Of a stretch of 64,000 bases of DNA, positions 44,153-58,580 are shown in pieces. A program made the translations under genes and the position numbers. The notes below the pieces were generated by a model. That model was given only the letters and a program-made list of their open reading frames with translations. It ran no database searches and had not been told where the DNA came from. The number at the start of each line of letters is the position of its first letter. Positions within the stretch are counted from its first letter, which is position 1. Source of the stretch: Acidobacteriota bacterium. Lineage in GTDB: Bacteria > Acidobacteriota > Terriglobia > Acidiferrales > UBA7541. The DNA is taken from NCBI GenBank assembly GCA_013289955.1, contig JABCYZ010000022.1, positions 1 through 64,000 on the forward strand. The letters are read 5' to 3'.

Positions 44153-44318
44153 CAAGAGCCGCTTCGATGCTCACTCGGGCATTTGTCTTTCGATGAAATA
44201 AAAAAACAGATCGAAGAAAACAAAAGTTTGCGTTTCGGTTCTGCGCCGTTATGCAATACCTTCCTCGAAACTTACTGTCCTCGGGGCGCGGCCAAGCGGG
44301 GTGAATCCGAAATTCTTT

Positions 44319-44332
44319 GCAAAAATTTTTGC
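44319..44332. promoter_or_regulatory. AT-core palindrome upstream of the second TonB receptor
   Basis: GCAAAAA followed directly by TTTTTGC forms a perfect 14-bp palindrome 64 bp before the receptor ATG. CCAAGC (44292-44297) and GCTTGG (44331-44336) form an outer inverted repeat around it. It may be an operator or a bent promoter element. Confidence 0.3.
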
Positions 44333-44396
44333 TTGGTCTCGGTCCCGAAGACGGCCGGCTTTGTGTGTGTTCCTGGAAAGCGGGAGGCGTCGCGGA

Positions 44397-47300
44397 ATGG
44401 CCAAGTCATCAGCTGGAGTTTTTTTCTTCTTCGTGGCATCGTGCCTTTGTTGTCTCGGGCTTCCCCCGGATGCCTTCCCGCAGCAGACTCTCGGCGGCAT
44501 TACCGGCACGGTCATGGACTCCTCCGGCGGAGTTCTCGCCGATGCCTCCGTCACCGTCGTCTCGGACAGCACGCAGCTCACCCGCACTCAAAAAACCACC
44601 AGCGTCGGCAGCTACGATTTTGTAAACCTTCCCATTGGCTCCTACACGCTCACCTTCTCCCACGATGGCTTCGAAACCCAAAGAATCCCGTCTATCGTCG
44701 TGCAAGCCGATCGCACGGCCACCGTCAACGCTGTCCTCAAAGTTGGGCAGGTCGGCACGACCGTCACCGTCGAGGCCACCCCGCTCCTGAACGCCGTGGA
44801 CACCACCAACGGCTACATTCTCGAAAAAGCCCAGCTCGAGTCCATTCCGCTTCCCACCGGCAGCTTTACCGGCATCGCCATCCTTTCTCCCGGCGTCAAT
44901 GCCGAACTCTCGAGCGGCTCCGGCGTCAACGCCGGCTTGGGTAATCTTCCCATCTGGGCCAACGGCCAGCGCGACACGAGCAACACTTTCCTGCTCAACG
45001 GCGTCGATGCCAGCAATCTCTTCAACGGCAAAAGCACCAGCCAGGTCGCCAGCGCCCGCATCGTCAACAATACCGGCATCGGCGGCGCCGCCAGCATCTC
45101 CAGCACCACCGCCGAGCCTCTCCAAAGCACCGCTTCTCCCTATCTCGCCATCGGCCAGGCTCTTCCCACTCCGGCTTCTGAAACCATCGAAGAATTTCGC
45201 GTGAACACTTCGATGTACGACGCCCAGCAAGGTTCGACCAGCGGTGCGCACATTGATATGAGCACCGCCTCCGGCACCAACACTCTCCATGGCAGCGCTT
45301 ATCTCTATCGCGCCTCGGACGCCCTCAACGCCGCTCCCTTCTTCTACAATGCCGATCCCAATATTCCCTCGAGCGACAAAGTGCCCGGCCTTCACAATTA
45401 CACGGCTGGCGGCACCGTCGGAGGTCCGATCCTCAAGAACAAGCTCTTCGGCTTTCTCTCCTACCAGCATGTCGAGAAATCCGACGCCGAAATCGGCAGC
45501 TCCCGCGTTTCCGTTCCTCCCGGCCTCACCGGCGATCGCAGCCCGGCCGCTTTGGCCGCCCTCGTTAACGGCAACTTTCCCGATTCCGCCACGGTTAATC
45601 CCGTCATCGGCACGGCCCCCGGCGACATCAGCCCGATCGCCTATGGCCTCCTCAATTACAAACTCCCCAACGGCCAATTCCTCTTCCCCAGCGCCAACAG
45701 CTTCGTCCCCACCATCAGTTTCCCCGAAAACACCTTCACGCCCGGCACCGCCTACTTCAAGGCCGATCAAGCCGTCTCCGATCTCGACTGGATGGCTACT
45801 TCCAAAGACACCGTCGCTCTCAAGTATTACTACCAGCACGATCCGAGCATCGCTCCCTACGCCTACTCCGGCTCCCCCGGCTTCACGCAGAATCTCGACG
45901 CTGGCAGCCAGGTCGCCTCCATCACCAACACCCAGGTCCTCAAACCCAATCTCAGCGTTGTCGAAGTCTTCGGCTTCCTTCGTGAAAAGATCTACAGCAC
46001 CCTCCAGCAGCCCTTCACCCCTCAGCAATTCGGCTCCTATGTTCAGCAGCTTACCGGCGCCTCCGTCTCCGATTCCACCATCAACACTTTCGGGTCTTCC
46101 TTTTTCCCCGGCATCTCCATCGTCGACAACTACGGCAACTCCGCTCCCTACAATGAAAACTTTGTCTTCAACGCCGCCACCAACATCGGCAGCGGCGCGG
46201 CTTCCCAGGGCGCCTGGACCGGCGTCTTCCAAAATCGCTTCATGCCCAGCGCCAACGCCATCTGGACTTTCGGCAAACACACCATCACTTTCGGCGGCAA
46301 CTTCGCCTACACCCAGCTGAACACCCGCGATGAACGCACTGACAAGGGCACTATCGGTTTCGCCGACTTCTCTCAATTCCTTCAGGGCCTGGTCGTCCCC
46401 TATACGCCCGACGGCTTCATAACCACCGCCTATCTCCAGGGCGACGCCAACCGCTACTACCGCTCCAAGGAAACCGGCCTCTTTCTTCAGGACAAATATC
46501 AAATCTTCCCGAACCTCAGTCTGACCGCCGGCCTCCGCTTCGACGACCACGGCGGCCTCACCGAAAAATACGGCCGCCTCTACAATTTCAATCCTGCCGA
46601 ATACGACTACGACGATGCCACTGACACCATCGTCAACACCGGCTTCCTCATCGCCGGCAATAACAAGCTCTTCCCCACGAAAGGCGTCAGCGATTCCACG
46701 CTCACCGGCCGCCAGTGGGGTCTCGGCCCGCGCCTCGGCCTCGCCTGGAGTCCCAAAAAGTTCAACAACAAAATCGTCGTCCGCGCCGGTTGGGGCATGT
46801 ACTACGACCGCGGCGAACTCTTCACCTATCTCTCCCCCGGCTTTGCCGCAGGCGTCATTGCCGGAGGTCCTTTCGGCGTCAACCAGGCCCCACCCTTCGT
46901 CAATTCCCAGGTCTGCAGCAGCATCGGCACCTTCTACCAGGGATTCATACCCACCTGCGATCCCGCGCAGCCAACCGGTGGCTCGTTCTCGAATCCCTGG
47001 GGAGCAGCTCTCCAGGCTCCTCCCACCGGCAATCCCGCCAGCATCGTCCTTCCCAACGCCGCCGCGATCGAAAATGGCGCTCAGCTCTTCTCCTTTGCCG
47101 ATTACAACCGAGCCAACAAGCTCCCCTACACCCTCAACCAGACGCTCGACATCCAGTGGCAGCCCAGGAAAGATCTAGCTATCACGATCGGCTATGTTGG
47201 CAACTTCGGCCGCCACGAAGTCATCCCCGTGCCCTTCAACCAGGCCGGCATCGCCACTCCCACCCATCCCATTCACGGCCAAACCTACACCTACGGCTAC

Positions 47301-48365
47301 ACCGTAGAAGCGCCCCCGGGCTGCAATCCCACTCTGGACCCAGCCGCCTGCGCCTACACTTCCACTTGCAACGCAAGTGGCGCCACTTCCGGCTGCTTAC
47401 CCATGGGCCTTCCCGACGGCACGAGCATGATGGAGAACTATGAAGGCGGCAACATCGACCTCCGCGTCCCCTACATCGGCTATTCTTCCGAATCCGAGTC
47501 CTACACCGCCGCTGGCATTTCCGCCTACAATGCGCTCCAAGCCCACGTCGAAAAACGCATCAGTCACGGACTCCAGGTTGGCTTCTCCTACACCTTCTCC
47601 CACGCCACCGACGAACAAAGTGCCATGGGCCTCTTCTACAACGGCAACAATGCCACGGACCTCCGCAGCGGCTACGGTCTCTCCGATTTCGACCGCAAGC
47701 ACGTTATCAACTTCACCTATCTCTACGAGCTTCCGAAGTTCTTCGAACTGACTTCCATGCGCGGCCGCTTTGCCGACGGCTGGGCTATCTCAGGCCTTGC
47801 CATCATCCAAAGTGGCCAGCCCTACAGCGTCATCGACTATTCGGGCGCCGTCGGCAGCCTTTACTACGGCACGAGCGACGGCATCACCAACCCCATCGTC
47901 CCCCTCGCTCCCGGCTGCACGCCTTCAAACGCCTACACCGGCGCCAGCGGCACCGTTCCCGGCCTCCCAGCCCTCAATCCCAATTGCTTCACGGTCCCGC
48001 TTCTCGCCCCGGGAGATCTCGGCGGCGCCATTCCGGCCGGCGACACGTTTGAAACTACCTACACCACTGGCCAGCGCAACATCTTCCGCCAGCCCTGGCA
48101 GCGCCGCACCGATCTCTCCGTCATTAAAATGACCCAGCTGACCGAGCGCGTCTCCCTAAGATTCACTTTCGAAGTTTTCAACCTAACCAACACCCCGAGC
48201 TTCGATATTCCCATCGACGACGTTACTCAAAACCTTAACTTCAACGATTTCCCCGTCTATGGCTCCCAGCTCTATTCCTCCCCCACCCTGAGCGGCATCG
48301 GCATCGTCAACAAGACCATAGGCAGCCCCCGCCAAATCCAAATGTCCCTAAAATTCAGCTTCTAA
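44397..48365 (+). CDS. Second Oar-type TonB-dependent receptor
   Basis: A 1322-residue outer-membrane protein. It has a signal peptide (GVFFFFVASCLCCLGLPPDAFPQ) and a CarboxypepD_reg sandwich (GGITGTVMDSSGGVLADASVTVV). The plug (LESIPLPTGSFTGIAILSPGVNAELSSGSGVNAGLG; FLLNGVDASNLFNGK) is followed by a large barrel ending in IQMSLKFSF. Compared with the first receptor (28197) it is about 150 residues longer, mostly in cysteine-containing surface loops (GCNPTLDPAACAYTSTCNAS). Ligand unknown; import of oligosaccharide or peptide is the usual role. The start is the ATG at 44397 behind GGGAGG; a frame from 44301 adds an Arg-rich leader that would displace the signal peptide. The gene is monocistronic. 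Confidence 0.9.
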   Translation: MAKSSAGVFFFFVASCLCCLGLPPDAFPQQTLGGITGTVMDSSGGVLADASVTVVSDSTQLTRTQKTTSVGSYDFVNLPIGSYTLTFSHDGFETQRIPSIVVQADRTATVNAVLKVGQVGTTVTVEATPLLNAVDTTNGYILEKAQLESIPLPTGSFTGIAILSPGVNAELSSGSGVNAGLGNLPIWANGQRDTSNTFLLNGVDASNLFNGKSTSQVASARIVNNTGIGGAASISSTTAEPLQSTASPYLAIGQALPTPASETIEEFRVNTSMYDAQQGSTSGAHIDMSTASGTNTLHGSAYLYRASDALNAAPFFYNADPNIPSSDKVPGLHNYTAGGTVGGPILKNKLFGFLSYQHVEKSDAEIGSSRVSVPPGLTGDRSPAALAALVNGNFPDSATVNPVIGTAPGDISPIAYGLLNYKLPNGQFLFPSANSFVPTISFPENTFTPGTAYFKADQAVSDLDWMATSKDTVALKYYYQHDPSIAPYAYSGSPGFTQNLDAGSQVASITNTQVLKPNLSVVEVFGFLREKIYSTLQQPFTPQQFGSYVQQLTGASVSDSTINTFGSSFFPGISIVDNYGNSAPYNENFVFNAATNIGSGAASQGAWTGVFQNRFMPSANAIWTFGKHTITFGGNFAYTQLNTRDERTDKGTIGFADFSQFLQGLVVPYTPDGFITTAYLQGDANRYYRSKETGLFLQDKYQIFPNLSLTAGLRFDDHGGLTEKYGRLYNFNPAEYDYDDATDTIVNTGFLIAGNNKLFPTKGVSDSTLTGRQWGLGPRLGLAWSPKKFNNKIVVRAGWGMYYDRGELFTYLSPGFAAGVIAGGPFGVNQAPPFVNSQVCSSIGTFYQGFIPTCDPAQPTGGSFSNPWGAALQAPPTGNPASIVLPNAAAIENGAQLFSFADYNRANKLPYTLNQTLDIQWQPRKDLAITIGYVGNFGRHEVIPVPFNQAGIATPTHPIHGQTYTYGYTVEAPPGCNPTLDPAACAYTSTCNASGATSGCLPMGLPDGTSMMENYEGGNIDLRVPYIGYSSESESYTAAGISAYNALQAHVEKRISHGLQVGFSYTFSHATDEQSAMGLFYNGNNATDLRSGYGLSDFDRKHVINFTYLYELPKFFELTSMRGRFADGWAISGLAIIQSGQPYSVIDYSGAVGSLYYGTSDGITNPIVPLAPGCTPSNAYTGASGTVPGLPALNPNCFTVPLLAPGDLGGAIPAGDTFETTYTTGQRNIFRQPWQRRTDLSVIKMTQLTERVSLRFTFEVFNLTNTPSFDIPIDDVTQNLNFNDFPVYGSQLYSSPTLSGIGIVNKTIGSPRQIQMSLKFSF

Positions 48366-51246: not shown

Positions 51247-53106
51247 CTATAGGTGTCCGGCCTCGGAGGTAATTTTTTCCGGTTGAAAAGCGATGTGCTT
51301 CAGGATCTGCGGCAGCGTTGTGAACACCCCGGGGCCCCTGGTCAGTTTCAGGCGAATGGCCACCTTTTCAGGATCTCCCTCGAAATGCCAGAGACAAACG
51401 GCGATATACAAATCCGGCGACTGGGCCCGCAATCTTGCGTACAGCGCTCGCGCGTGGTCCACGGCAAACGGCGGCAGCGCCGAAATGCACACGACCGCCG
51501 GGTTTAGCTCCGCCACCTGGGCCAACATCTCCGCGACTGAGCCGATCGCTATGCTCTGCGCTCTGTGACCCTGTCGCTCGAGGAGTTGCGCCAGCAGCAT
51601 GGCCACAACGTCATCTGCATCGTCCCGAGCCGGCATGCAGAGCACCTCCAAACTGCCTGTTTCGTCGATCCCCCTTCGAAACGATTCGGACCGCTTTTCT
51701 CCTGTACTCTCTCCGCTCTCGGCAGGGGCGGTATCGGCCAGCTCCTCGATAATTTCCCGCGTGCTTTGATAGATGAAATTTTGCTTTTCTTCATCCAGTT
51801 CGTTTCGGTGCCGGTCCTGCTCGGCAAGACTCAACGCCGGTATCAGCACGGTGCTATAAAGTTCTTCGAGATTGTTCTCTTTGAGATGCAGCTCCAGGAC
51901 TTGCCTGGCCTCATTTTGATCCGTGGCCAAGAGCCGCTGATAATATTGTGCGTGCGGCGGCAGAACAGGCGCATCCCCCAAAAGCACATTCAGGAAACTC
52001 AGGCTTGGAACGTAGCGCCCCATCACGACCAGACAAACCGTCAGGGGGGTCGCCAGCACAAGCCCGGGAAATCCCCAGATCAGCGTCCAAAATACAGCCG
52101 CCACCAGGATCGCGAGTGGCCCAAGCCCGAGGTGTGCGCCGTATAGAAGCGGTTCAACGATATTCGCTACGGTCAACTCCAGAAGCAGGAAAAGTCCCGC
52201 GGTTGCGAGAGCGTGCTGCCATCCGGGGAAAACCGCAAGGGAAAGCAAAATAGGCATTGCTGCTGCCATTGGCGGCCCGATATAGGGCAGGAAGCGAAGA
52301 ACAGCGGCCGCCACGCCCCAAAGCGCGGAATTCGGAATACCAATCAGATGCAATGCCGTGAACACGATCAGCCCGTAACCTGAGTTAACGAGCAGTTGGA
52401 GAAGTAAATACCGGTTTATCCGCTGGGTCGCTTCGTCCAGCGCCTGGGTCATCATATTCAATCGCCCACCGCCCGCCAGCCGGATGAGCCGATTGCGCAA
52501 ATCTTCCCTGCCCGCAAGAATAAAAATGGTGAACAGGATCACCACTCCCGCGTTTCCGAGTGGACCCAGCAGGTCTTCGACGGATTCAAGCGGGTTACCG
52601 GGAGCAACGAGTTCCACGGCGATCGGTCGCGATTCTGTGGATCCGGGAGCCGCGGCTGTCCTTTTCGTTTCATTCCTGGACGGTACGGCCCCCGGACTCA
52701 CCGCAGTTATTTCCCTCGACAACTCTTTAACGGTGTCGGAAGCCTTGTGAATACTCTGGCTGCCGGGCCCTTTGAGCGAGCGGATCTTGTCTTCGAGCGT
52801 TTGCCTGTAGGAAGGCAGCTGGTCCGTCAAGTCGACGAATTGCTGGGAAGTTTTCCACCCGATCAGGCCCATCAAACCAACCAGTAGGACGATCACGAGA
52901 AAAATGGCAAGTGCGCGTGGCAGCCTGATTCTTTCAAGGAAGGCAACGGGCGCAGACAATACGAGCGAGAGAAGCAGAGCCAGCGCCAGGGGTATGAATA
53001 CGATTCGGGCAAAATAAAGTGTTGCGATCACCACCACTGCGGCAACAATTCCGAGAAGCCGCGAATTTACGGCCGATCCTGCTGCCCGTTTTAGAGATTT
53101 TTCCAT
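51247..53106 (-). CDS. AI-2E family transporter with C-terminal B12-domain-like extension
   Basis: A 619-residue protein. Residues 1-375 are an AI-2E/PerM-family membrane protein (eight or so helices, family motif PYIGPPMAAAMPILLSL at 274-290). Residues about 384-456 form a helical segment (YYQRLLATDQNEARQVLELHLKENNLEELYSTVLIPALSLAEQ) that resembles the four-helix cap of cobalamin-binding modules. After a charged linker, residues about 486-605 resemble the Rossmann-like B12 domain (SLEVLCMPARDDADDV ... VCISALPPF). The SxL element is present (SAL, 542-544), but the DxHxxG histidine is replaced (DDADDV, 495-500), so cobalamin ligation through histidine is unlikely. Family members export quorum signals or contribute to sodium/proton exchange. 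The extension suggests a sensory or regulatory role (inference). No strong ribosome site precedes the ATG at 53106. Confidence 0.85.
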   Translation of the reverse strand: MEKSLKRAAGSAVNSRLLGIVAAVVVIATLYFARIVFIPLALALLLSLVLSAPVAFLERIRLPRALAIFLVIVLLVGLMGLIGWKTSQQFVDLTDQLPSYRQTLEDKIRSLKGPGSQSIHKASDTVKELSREITAVSPGAVPSRNETKRTAAAPGSTESRPIAVELVAPGNPLESVEDLLGPLGNAGVVILFTIFILAGREDLRNRLIRLAGGGRLNMMTQALDEATQRINRYLLLQLLVNSGYGLIVFTALHLIGIPNSALWGVAAAVLRFLPYIGPPMAAAMPILLSLAVFPGWQHALATAGLFLLLELTVANIVEPLLYGAHLGLGPLAILVAAVFWTLIWGFPGLVLATPLTVCLVVMGRYVPSLSFLNVLLGDAPVLPPHAQYYQRLLATDQNEARQVLELHLKENNLEELYSTVLIPALSLAEQDRHRNELDEEKQNFIYQSTREIIEELADTAPAESGESTGEKRSESFRRGIDETGSLEVLCMPARDDADDVVAMLLAQLLERQGHRAQSIAIGSVAEMLAQVAELNPAVVCISALPPFAVDHARALYARLRAQSPDLYIAVCLWHFEGDPEKVAIRLKLTRGPGVFTTLPQILKHIAFQPEKITSEAGHL

Positions 53107-54166: not shown

Positions 54167-55252
54167 ATGAACCTTGATCACGAACTATTGAAAAGTCTCC
54201 CCAAAGTTCTGCTCCACGAGCACCTCGACGGCGTCCTCCGCCCCGAAACCGTCATAGACCTGGCCAAAACCGCCGGCTATGACGGACTTCCCACCAAAAA
54301 CCCCGAAGAGCTCGCCCACTGGTTCCACCAGGGCGCCAACCAAGGCAGCCTCCCCAAATATCTCGAGGGCTTTGTTCACACCATCGCCGTGATGCAAACC
54401 GAAGAGGCCCTCGAACGCGTCGCCTACGAACAAGCCGAGGACTTGTCGGGCGACGGCATCGTCTACTTTGAAACGCGCTTCGCCCCGATCTTTCACACCA
54501 AGAAAAGCCTGAGCCACCAGCAGGTGGTCTCCGCCGTCCTAAAAGGCCTCGAGCGCGGCAAGCACGACTTTGGAATCTCCTCAGGATTGATCATCTGCGC
54601 CATGCGCAACATGGACGTCTCTCTCGAAATGGCCGAGCTCGCCGTCGACTTCCGCGATCGCGGAGTCGTAGGATTCGATTTAGCCGGCGAAGAAGGCGGC
54701 TATCCGCCCAAAAAACACGTCGACGCTTTTCATTACATTCAGCGCAAGAATTTCAGCATCACCATTCACGCCGGCGAAGGCTACGGAAAGGAATCGATCT
54801 GGCAGGCCATCCAATATTGCGGCGCGCACCGCATCGGCCACGGCACCCGCCTCATCGACGACATCGCCATCGCCGAAGACGGCAAAGTCGTCAAATTGGG
54901 CGACATCGCGCAATATGTTCTCGACAAAAGAATTCCGCTGGAAATCTGCCTGCTCAGCAACGTGCAAACCGGCGCCGCGCGCAGCCTCCCCGAGCATCCC
55001 TTCAAAACTTTCTATCAGCAGAAATTCCGCGTCACGCTGAATACCGACAACCGCCTGATGAGCGACACCACCATGACCAAGGAATTCGAGGCCGCCGCCG
55101 ACACCTTTGGCCTGACCCTCGACGACTTCGAAATACTCACCGTCAACGCCATGAAAAGCGCGTTCCTCCCCTATCACCAGCGCTGCGATTTCATCTACAA
55201 CGTCCTCAAGCCCGGCTACGCCAAAATCCGCCGCTTCCAGCAAGAGGAGTGA
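54167..55252 (+). CDS. add: Adenosine deaminase family protein
   Basis: A 361-residue amidohydrolase of the adenosine/adenine deaminase family. Metal ligands lie in LLHEHLDG (H17, H19) and HAGEGYG (H201, with catalytic E204), and the late barrel motifs are ICLLSNVQTGA and TLNTDNRLMS, where TDNR carries the metal-binding aspartate. The N-terminal KVLLHEHLDGVLRP is shared with true adenosine deaminases. It converts (deoxy)adenosine to (deoxy)inosine, which would feed purine salvage or, via hypoxanthine, the xanthine dehydrogenase encoded next door. The gene converges with the purine-degradation cluster, ending 19 bp from the last gene of that operon. The ATG at 54167 follows a purine-rich AGAGAAAG. 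Confidence 0.88.
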   Translation: MNLDHELLKSLPKVLLHEHLDGVLRPETVIDLAKTAGYDGLPTKNPEELAHWFHQGANQGSLPKYLEGFVHTIAVMQTEEALERVAYEQAEDLSGDGIVYFETRFAPIFHTKKSLSHQQVVSAVLKGLERGKHDFGISSGLIICAMRNMDVSLEMAELAVDFRDRGVVGFDLAGEEGGYPPKKHVDAFHYIQRKNFSITIHAGEGYGKESIWQAIQYCGAHRIGHGTRLIDDIAIAEDGKVVKLGDIAQYVLDKRIPLEICLLSNVQTGAARSLPEHPFKTFYQQKFRVTLNTDNRLMSDTTMTKEFEAAADTFGLTLDDFEILTVNAMKSAFLPYHQRCDFIYNVLKPGYAKIRRFQQEE

Positions 55253-55271
55253 CGCCCCGCCTCTAAGGGTC

Positions 55272-56510
55272 TCAACCCGCGAGCGCAGCGAGCGTTTCGG
55301 CAAGCACAAGCACGCCGCGCCCGATATCCTCCGGCGACGCGTATTCATCCGGCCGGTGGCTGTACCCGTTGCGGCAAGGAATAAACAACATCGCGACAGG
55401 AGCAACCCGCGACATAAAAAGTGAATCATGATAAGCGCGACTGACCATTTCGATCGAAGCCAGCCCATGTTTCCGGCAGGCCTCGGATAGCGCTTCAACA
55501 ATCAGAGGAGCGCACTGCGCGGGCGCATCGGCGTTGACGATTTCTTCCTCGATCGAAACTTGCCGCTTCGCTGCAATCGTTTTCTGCGCCGTTCCGATCG
55601 CGCGCATCCCGGCATCACGTCGCCCGAGATCCGTATCGCGAATGTCGAGGGTTAAATGGACGCGACTCGGGATGCTGTTGACCGCGCCGGGAAACACATC
55701 GCAAATGCCGACCGTCGCCACCGTATCCACCGCGCCGCTCGTCTTGGCCGCATTCTCGATCGCGAGAATGAGTTCGGATGCAGCGCAAAGCGCGTCGCGT
55801 CGCTCCGGCATCAGCACGGCCCCCGCATGCCCGCCCGCGCCTCCTATCGTAAAGCGCAAACTCGCCGGCGCCGCGATGCTCGTGACGATGCCAAGCGGAA
55901 CTTTTTGCTCCTCGAGCAGTGGACCCTGCTCGATGTGTAGTTCGACAAACGCCTTGTAGTAGCCGTCGCGCAGTTTCACGTCCCGAAGCGGCGCCTGGTA
56001 GCCCGCGTTACGGCGAACCTCTTCGAGCGACGCACCGTCTTTGTCAGAAAGCTTTCCGGCCGCTTCCGGAGTCATCGCGCCGGACAGCAGCCTGCTGCCG
56101 AGACAGCCAATTCCAAAGCGCGTCGGCTCCTCGGAAGTGAAGACGAGCAATTCGATCGAATGCTTCGGACAGAAGCCGACGCGCTCGAGCGAGCGAATCG
56201 CTTCGAGCCCGCCAAGCACGCCCACGACGCCATCATATTTTCCGGCGTTGGGGATGGCATCGATGTGGGAACCCGTTCCCACTGCCGGAGCTGCCGCCTC
56301 GGACCCCGTCCACCGCGCAAAAATATTACCGATAGCATCCTGGCGCACCGCAAGGCCGGCCTTTTCGCATCGCCCAACAAGCCACGCGCGCGCCAGCAAA
56401 TCCGCCGCCGAAAAAACAATTCGCGTGACGACCGGCGGCTCGGCTTCAGAAATCGCGGCCAGCTCTTCGATCTCCGCCACCAGACGATTCTGGTCGACAG
56501 CGAGATTCAT
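55272..56510 (-). CDS. Ureidoglycolate amidohydrolase (M20 family)
   Basis: A 412-residue M20-family metal-dependent hydrolase. The metal and catalytic segments are GTGSHIDAIPNAGKYDGVVG and TSEEPTRFGIGCLGSR; the latter string closely matches plant ureidoglycolate amidohydrolase (UAH) and separates this enzyme from the allantoate amidohydrolase encoded two genes upstream. FVELHIEQGPLLEE and AGGHAGAVLMPERRD are further family motifs. It splits S-ureidoglycolate to glyoxylate, CO2 and two ammonia, the last step of the ureide pathway. Its ATG shares a base with the TGA of the ureidoglycine aminohydrolase gene (TGATG), implying coupled translation. It is the last gene of the eight-gene operon. Confidence 0.87.
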   Translation of the reverse strand: MNLAVDQNRLVAEIEELAAISEAEPPVVTRIVFSAADLLARAWLVGRCEKAGLAVRQDAIGNIFARWTGSEAAAPAVGTGSHIDAIPNAGKYDGVVGVLGGLEAIRSLERVGFCPKHSIELLVFTSEEPTRFGIGCLGSRLLSGAMTPEAAGKLSDKDGASLEEVRRNAGYQAPLRDVKLRDGYYKAFVELHIEQGPLLEEQKVPLGIVTSIAAPASLRFTIGGAGGHAGAVLMPERRDALCAASELILAIENAAKTSGAVDTVATVGICDVFPGAVNSIPSRVHLTLDIRDTDLGRRDAGMRAIGTAQKTIAAKRQVSIEEEIVNADAPAQCAPLIVEALSEACRKHGLASIEMVSRAYHDSLFMSRVAPVAMLFIPCRNGYSHRPDEYASPEDIGRGVLVLAETLAALAG

Positions 56511-57322
56511 CAGCGCCGGCCCTTCTTTGGCGGATTCTTCGCCGTTTTGCTCTGCGGCGCCGGAGCCGGCTCATCCGATGGCCGGGCGGGACCGAGCGGA
56601 TGGCGGTTCCAGTCTTTGTAGATGAGATATTTCGCGGGGACTTTGCCGATGGCGCCGAACCACTGCGGGCACCACGGTGCCATCCAGATGAAATCGCCGG
56701 CGGTGACGGGATACCACGAATCGCCGAGGCGATAAATGCCGCCGCCTTCGAGCATGAGCAACCCGTGTTCCATGACGTGCATTTCGACCATGCTGAGCGC
56801 GGCGCCGGGCTGGTACACCATCGAGTTCACTGCAAAATCGAATTGCATCGTGTCGGGAAGCAGGTGCTTCACTTCCAAGGCCGTATCGCCGTCCAGCGGC
56901 TCCGAAGAAATAGCGTCTTCCGAGGAAAGAATGGCGCGGGGCGATTCGAATGGGGCGAGTGGCTGATAGGTTTTTTCGATGATGGCCGCACGGCTCGCCT
57001 TCGCTGCCACTACACGATGCGAGGCGCCTTCGGGAAGGTACGCGTAGGCGCGGACCCCCAGGTCGTTTTGGCGGCCATCCACCTCGAGCCTGAGCTGGCC
57101 TTCGAGGACGTAAAGGAAGCGCTGCGCGTTGGTGGGGCCAAGTTCGCCGCCGGACTGGAATTCGGCGGTGTACTCGGTGAATCGCGCGCCTCCCGCAAGG
57201 CCCGCATGCACGACCCCGAGGCAAGCTTTCATGCCGGGCAACGGGGTTCGCACGAAGGTGTCTGGTGTCAGAAGGAGATGGTTGTGCTTCTGGGAGCTGC
57301 GCGTTTGACCAAGATTATGCAC
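56510..57322 (-). CDS. allE: (S)-ureidoglycine aminohydrolase
   Basis: A 270-residue bicupin. The first cupin starts at SSQKHNHLLLTPDTFVRTPLPG and includes YTAEFQSGGELGPTNAQRFLYVLEGQL. The second has the Mn-binding set in VEMHVMEHGLLMLEGGGIYRLGDSWYPVTAGDFIWMAPWCPQWFGA, the signature of ureidoglycine aminohydrolase (plant UGlyAH, bacterial AllE/YlbA). It releases ammonia from S-ureidoglycine to give S-ureidoglycolate. The start is a GTG at 57322, which overlaps the upstream stop by 8 bp and has AAGGA at about 9 nt; the frame open to 57445 only shadows the upstream gene. A C-terminal Pro/Lys-rich tail of about 35 residues (PARPSDEPAPAPQSK) is unusual. It lies between the two M20 hydrolases, exactly between their steps in the pathway. 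Confidence 0.87.
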   Translation of the reverse strand: MHNLGQTRSSQKHNHLLLTPDTFVRTPLPGMKACLGVVHAGLAGGARFTEYTAEFQSGGELGPTNAQRFLYVLEGQLRLEVDGRQNDLGVRAYAYLPEGASHRVVAAKASRAAIIEKTYQPLAPFESPRAILSSEDAISSEPLDGDTALEVKHLLPDTMQFDFAVNSMVYQPGAALSMVEMHVMEHGLLMLEGGGIYRLGDSWYPVTAGDFIWMAPWCPQWFGAIGKVPAKYLIYKDWNRHPLGPARPSDEPAPAPQSKTAKNPPKKGRR

Positions 57323-58580
57323 GGCACATCCTTTTTTGAAGTTCAGAAGAATTTGCAAGCTGATCGAGCAAGTGCAAGCCGCATTCGAGCGCTTTGGCGA
57401 CGTCTCCCGGTTCGACGGATTCCGCCGGGTCGTGGCTGATTCCACCGGGAGAGCGCAGGAAAATCATCGCGGCAGGAACCTTTTCGGCGAGGATCATGGC
57501 GTCGTGTCCGGCGCCGCTTGTCATGCGGTGCGGTTGGCAGCCTGTGCTGCGAATGGCTTCCTGGATCTGGTCGATCAGAAATGGGTCCATCGCAACCGCG
57601 TGCTGGCTTAGCAGCACGCTTTGCCGGAGGGTCAGGCCACGGCGCGCGGCAATTTCGCGGGCCAGCCGAACAAGCGTTTCCGCCGCGCGTTTGAGAATGT
57701 CGTCCGACTTGTGGCGAACATCAAGACTTACGCGCGCTTCCGCGGCAATCACATTCGTCGCGCCGGGTTTTGCTTCGATTTGGCCAACGGTCGCAACGAG
57801 GCCGGGATGATTTTCGGCGGTGCGCTCGACGGCCAGGATCCATTCGGCGGCGGCGGCGATGGCATCGTGGCGGAGATGCATGGGCGTTGTGCCGGCATGG
57901 TTGGCCCTGCCCAGAAATTCGAACGACATGCGAGATTGCGCCGCGATGGCTTCGACGGCGCCAAGCGACCGTCCCAGCGATTCGAGCACCGGTCCTTGCT
58001 CGATATGAAATTCCAGGTAGGCCAGGGTGCCCTTGCTCAGCGCCGCGCGCGGAATATCCTCGAGGTTCAGTCCAAAGTGTTCGATGGCGTTCTTGACGGA
58101 GATTCCATTCCCGTCCTCGCGATTCAGGAGATCAGAATCGAGCCTGCCGACCAGAGCGCAGCTGCCGATAAAAGGCGTGCCGAAGCGGACTCCTTCTTCT
58201 TCGGAAAAGCCGACGACTTCGATGGCGAAAGGAAGCTGTCGCCCCTCGAGCGCCTCGAGGAGAGCGACGGCGATCACCACGCCTAGGACGCCGTCAAAAG
58301 CTCCGGCGTTCGGGACTGTATCGAGGTGCGAGCCGAGCAGCAGGCGGGGTCGAGAGGATTCGGCCGCGCCGTAGAAGCCTCGCAGGTTTCCAGCTGCATC
58401 CACGGTCACTTCGGCTCCGGCGGCTTTGAGCCACCGGGCGATTTCGCGGTGACAATCGTGCATCGGCCGGGAAAGGAAAGTACGTCGCGTACCAGTTGGG
58501 TCTTCGGAGAAAGACGCGAGTTTACGGCAGCGAGCGATCACTTCATCCGCGCGAATTGTTGTACCGCCCAGTGTGGACAC
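57315..58580 (-). CDS. allC: Allantoate amidohydrolase (M20 family)
   Basis: A 421-residue M20 enzyme. The metal-binding residues sit in LLLGSHLDTVPNAGAFDGVLG, the catalytic glutamates in GFSEEEGVRFGTPFIGS, and downstream ligands in YLEFHIEQGPVLES and MTSGAGHDAMILAEKVP. GRANHAGTTPMHLRHDA is the dimerisation/substrate segment common to allantoate and N-carbamoyl-amino-acid amidohydrolases. Beside a ureidoglycine aminohydrolase and uricase, allantoate (to S-ureidoglycine, CO2 and ammonia) is the natural substrate. The start is a GTG at 58580 behind AAAAGG, 6 bp after the uricase stop codon. Confidence 0.85.
   Translation of the reverse strand: MSTLGGTTIRADEVIARCRKLASFSEDPTGTRRTFLSRPMHDCHREIARWLKAAGAEVTVDAAGNLRGFYGAAESSRPRLLLGSHLDTVPNAGAFDGVLGVVIAVALLEALEGRQLPFAIEVVGFSEEEGVRFGTPFIGSCALVGRLDSDLLNREDGNGISVKNAIEHFGLNLEDIPRAALSKGTLAYLEFHIEQGPVLESLGRSLGAVEAIAAQSRMSFEFLGRANHAGTTPMHLRHDAIAAAAEWILAVERTAENHPGLVATVGQIEAKPGATNVIAAEARVSLDVRHKSDDILKRAAETLVRLAREIAARRGLTLRQSVLLSQHAVAMDPFLIDQIQEAIRSTGCQPHRMTSGAGHDAMILAEKVPAAMIFLRSPGGISHDPAESVEPGDVAKALECGLHLLDQLANSSELQKRMCRA

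Follow-up and report, generated by a model that had tools for sequence, protein, structure and literature searches.

An AI-2E-family transporter fused to a B12-type fold lacking the cobalt-coordinating histidine in an Acidobacteriota bacterium

The fusion gene and its transporter domain

The window analysed here, 64,000 nucleotides of contig JABCYZ010000022.1 from an Acidobacteriota bacterium, carries on its minus strand a gene (51247..53106) whose 619-residue open reading frame joins an AI-2E/PerM-type transporter to a C-terminal tail of B12-type fold; full-length relatives of the protein are 57% identical. The transporter domain (approximately residues 15-370; 51997..53064, minus strand), already recognized in a first-pass annotation made from the sequence, belongs to PF01594, scoring 141 bits against the Pfam gathering score of 34.3 (E = 6.7e-41). 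AI-2E/PerM proteins form a large family with poorly known regulation, and their cargo varies between members (PMC7221264). The sole solved structure matched by the N-terminal part is TqsA, the AI-2 exporter of Escherichia coli (7nb6; E = 2e-20; residues 22-112 and 189-377), which shares the AI-2E domain but is a 344-residue chain without a B12-fold tail, the match stopping where the tail begins. TqsA was deposited as one entry with five chains, in agreement with an oligomeric transporter. A full-length structure model of the fusion protein was poor (pLDDT 61), and we rejected it as a guide to how the tail is placed on the membrane part.

Downstream on the same strand lie genes for DUF892, BON, ActD/YflT-like and YtxH proteins, the ActD/YflT-like one scoring just under its Pfam cut-off. 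Two further loci in the window deserve mention: a purine/ureide catabolism cluster (54167-58580) encoding adenosine deaminase, two allantoate amidohydrolase-type M20 enzymes and (S)-ureidoglycine aminohydrolase, and a gene (44301-48365) for a 1354-residue TonB-dependent-receptor-like protein with a carboxypeptidase-regulatory-like N-terminus, whose family matches are weak.

Fold of the tail

A structure model of the tail, built from an alignment of the tail and six relatives (7 sequences), reached a mean pLDDT of 82 and a pTM of 0.80, with both domains mostly above 90. It predicts a four-helix cap at residues 384-459 (51730..51957, minus strand; helices 384-393, 397-410, 413-433 and 439-459), a flexible linker at residues 460-486 (51649..51729, minus strand), where pLDDT falls below 50 at 464-483 and the alignment is very variable, and an alternating beta-alpha, Rossmann-like domain at residues 487-606 (51289..51648, minus strand). 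The best 50 Foldseek matches of this model were all B12 modules, and in its predicted structure, a four-helix cap followed by a Rossmann-like domain, the tail itself has the fold of such modules. The first-pass annotation had placed a helical cap at 384-456 and a Rossmann-like part at 486-605, and had proposed structure prediction with a fold search as the means of checking this; the model moves these boundaries by at most a few residues, and the search returned cap-plus-Rossmann modules rather than another arrangement.

Comparison over the whole tail model ranked the photocobilins SasPcob and AbDPcob highest (8j2x and 8j2w, Z = 19.7 over 203-206 residues; 8j2y, Z = 19.1), followed by the SCHIC domain of AppA (4heh; Z = 18.1, rmsd 3.2, 195 residues aligned), the B12 domain of a Chloracidobacterium MerR protein (8jbs; Z = 17.7), MetH (1bmt; Z = 17.2) and CarH (5c8a; Z about 16). 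The photocobilins share the cap and Rossmann parts but bind adenosylcobalamin, carry a biliverdin domain and are not fused to a transporter, whereas AppA SCHIC offers a precedent for a regulatory B12-like fold without cobalamin. The modules of CarH and MetH have the identical two-part fold but retain DxHxxG and GG.

Sequence comparison with Pfam models was weak for this protein. With the whole protein as query, PF02310 was found below the cut-off (E = 3.5e-4; 20.8-22.9 bits against a gathering score of 32.1) and PF02607 weakly (E = 0.5); among the tails of 33 relatives, PF02310 was found in 25 (best E = 7e-11), PF02607 in 19 and the CarH model in 7. A profile of 33 tails searched against PDB sequences was likewise led by B12 proteins, 8j2y (E = 6e-4) and 8jbs (E = 3e-3) ranking ahead of 4jgi, 2yxb and 2i2x. 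Matches to the Rossmann part alone reached Z of at most about 11.6. We considered and rejected a chance Rossmann resemblance, because cap and Rossmann domain jointly match B12 modules and the sequence profiles agree.

Cobalamin-binding motifs

Conservation was assessed over 48 non-redundant fused tails from Acidobacteriota and Proteobacteria. The equivalent of DxHxxG is D496-A-D498-D-V-V501 (51604..51621, minus strand), a register taken from all printed profile alignments that span the motif (8j2y, 8jbs, 4jgi and 2i2x), in each of which Asp498 faces the cobalt-coordinating His and V501 faces Gly. The earlier reading that the motif had been replaced was right about the missing His, but its register, DDADDV (495-500), lay one residue early; the correct stretch is DADDVV (496-501). 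At position 498, Asp is found in 44 of the 48 tails and Leu in the other 4, so that none of these fusions retains the cobalt His. The SxL element, which the annotation had described as kept, is indeed present as S542-A-L544 (51475..51483, minus strand), with Ser in 30/48 tails and Leu in 37/48. At the place of GG stand C571-L572, followed by W573 (51388..51396, minus strand), a Trp shared by 36 of the 48; the second Gly of GG is kept only in the four Leu-bearing tails. The cap has a signature of its own, Y389-Q-R391-L-L-A-T-D396-Q-N-E399-A400 (51907..51942, minus strand), in which Y389, R391 and A400 are invariant (48/48).

CarH carries in addition a W-x9-EH cap motif, whose positions we take to correspond to R432 and Q442/N443 here. 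The light signature of CarH (GxxW, EH and GxxH; PMC11796333) is thus absent from this tail, which has R432, Q442-N443 and D498 instead. Nor is any other His conserved in the tail, the share of His in any column being at most 42% of members. In AppA SCHIC, heme is bound through a nearby His, offset by two residues from the place of the B12 ligand (PMC9144470); this His is missing here, where D496 and V500 stand, and the SCHIC domain further differs in being soluble and fused to BLUF. The His counts over the tail columns therefore indicate that neither the B12 ligand nor a shifted SCHIC-type heme ligand is conserved. They bear on a reading in which heme or a linear tetrapyrrole is the ligand of the tail, as in AppA SCHIC and the photocobilins; those proteins are the best fold matches, but the SCHIC ligand His is matched in only 1/48 tails (L023, at position 496) and the globin-like additional domain that houses biliverdin in photocobilins (PMC10979010) is absent here, and we consider this reading very improbable.

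By the topology of the model, the strongest conservation in the Rossmann domain (D498, S-A-L-P-P and W573) probably lies in loops facing the cap, on the ligand side of the fold. This placement argues against a tail that is ligand-free and serves as a platform for protein contacts or oligomerization, in the manner of the AppA B12-like domain that contacts PpsR. Such a platform would be in keeping with the high rank of AppA SCHIC among the fold matches and with the solved SCHIC-PpsR complex (4hh3), and the conserved cap residues Y389, R391 and D396 could be contact residues; on balance we find it doubtful. We caution that the conserved tail residues may be purely structural.

Comparison with HaAI-2E

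This type of fusion is already on record and is not unprecedented. A literature search, which did not extend to most subscription papers, returned one description of an AI-2E protein fused to a B12 or cobalamin domain, HaAI-2E (WP_052573826; PMC11796333). According to that 2024 paper, HaAI-2E combines AI-2E, cobalamin-binding and diguanylate cyclase domains, has Arg in place of His177 of CarH and, when obtained by expression in E. coli, bound hydroxocobalamin but not adenosyl- or methylcobalamin. The present protein shares the order of an AI-2E domain followed by a cobalamin-type module with the cobalt His replaced; judged by the published description, it differs in having Asp rather than Arg and in lacking the added diguanylate cyclase. 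What is new here is the breadth of the subfamily, its single origin and its Asp/Trp signature.

Since HaAI-2E bound hydroxocobalamin without the His, the missing His alone is no proof that corrinoid binding has been lost. The tail could accordingly sense a corrinoid such as aquo- or hydroxocobalamin or a cobinamide-like compound without a lower axial His, with the state of the corrinoid, not light, regulating the protein. The host genome holds three other B12-domain loci above the Pfam cut-off, so corrinoids may be around. However, GG has lost its second Gly and in most members is flanked by a Trp, which should crowd the channel for the nucleotide tail; the 48 tails have no conserved His; and the hydroxocobalamin binding of HaAI-2E could by our reckoning be unspecific ligation of cobalt by His. 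For these reasons we regard corrinoid sensing as unlikely.

Distribution and origin of the fusion

The fusion design is widespread in soil bacteria. The annotation had suggested a profile search for the same fusion in other Acidobacteriota, and we found the tail in 26/396 genomes and 15/211 genera of this phylum. It was also present in 181 plasmid records, mostly from rhizobia but also from Azospirillum, Sphingomonas, Microvirga, Nitrobacter and Caballeronia, the spread in Proteobacteria being known through plasmid records alone. A recent or unique fusion is rejected by these counts.

In a quick tree of the transporter domain, which included a small sample of seven truly unfused rows, some of them long-branched, every fused row fell in one clade (SH-aLRT 100), which argues for an old subfamily with a single fusion origin. 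The only two unfused rows inside this clade (L018 and L097) were considered as natural two-gene versions and rejected, because both are frameshift-split copies and the break in L097 lies within the AI-2E domain. The four Leu-bearing tails (L034, L035, L036 and L037) branch near the base of the fused clade, which suggests that loss of the cobalt His preceded the spread of the subfamily or came very soon after it began. This deep clade retains ExLxLG, GG and a His at the place of the CarH EH; its tail had no match when searched against the plasmids. Five other members (L026, L033, L085, L086 and L094) are four-part proteins in which AI-2E, cap and Rossmann domains are followed by a C-terminal GAF domain, an addition that fits a sensory tail.

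Possible role of the tail

On the most probable reading, the tail lies in the cytoplasm and regulates the transporter, having departed from canonical His-on cobalamin binding. Two observations make a regulatory role likely: the subfamily arose once, and some of its members have an added GAF domain. The first-pass annotation had reached a similar view, a transporter regulated by a different ligand or by protein contacts; the regulatory part of that proposal is likely, but its step from a missing His to another ligand is weakened by HaAI-2E. We give about even chances to the more specific proposal that a ligand or partner regulates the transporter without His-cobalt ligation.

Under this proposal, the ancestor of the tail would be a sensor domain that bound cobalamin, resembling those of CarH, the photocobilins or AppA SCHIC, and several copies of the tail would hang beneath an oligomeric transporter. 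The cap and the Rossmann domain might hold between them a small molecule or a partner protein, without a cobalt-His bond; the presence of this ligand or partner would alter the shape or the association of the tail, and that change might open, close or orient the transporter. A bolder version, for which we see a minority chance, is that in the Asp498/Trp573 subfamily the B12 fold now serves to recognize some new ligand, not a tetrapyrrole, and gates the transporter directly; this, if true, would be a mode of transporter control unknown for the B12 sensor fold. Should the tail indeed gate transport, it would offer a soluble, readily assayed handle on AI-2E/PerM control and present a case of a B12 photosensor fold reused after loss of its grip on the cofactor. 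Because the fusion is widespread among soil Acidobacteriota and among rhizobia, where large plasmids often carry it, it is open to genetic tests in strains kept in the laboratory, Sinorhizobium meliloti among them.

Gene neighbourhoods hint at stress physiology rather than a conserved operon. Frequent neighbours in relatives are genes for BON, YflT-type, BrkB, transglycosylase-associated, CsbD, PepSY, DUF2382 and EAL proteins, in a set that varies; the description of the gene as lying beside stress genes thus applies at this locus and roughly in several relatives, but the neighbourhood is not strictly conserved. An EAL-domain gene follows the fusion gene in Sinorhizobium meliloti (L042) and another precedes it in an Agrobacterium (L091), which may point to cyclic di-GMP, a connection that HaAI-2E also brings to mind.
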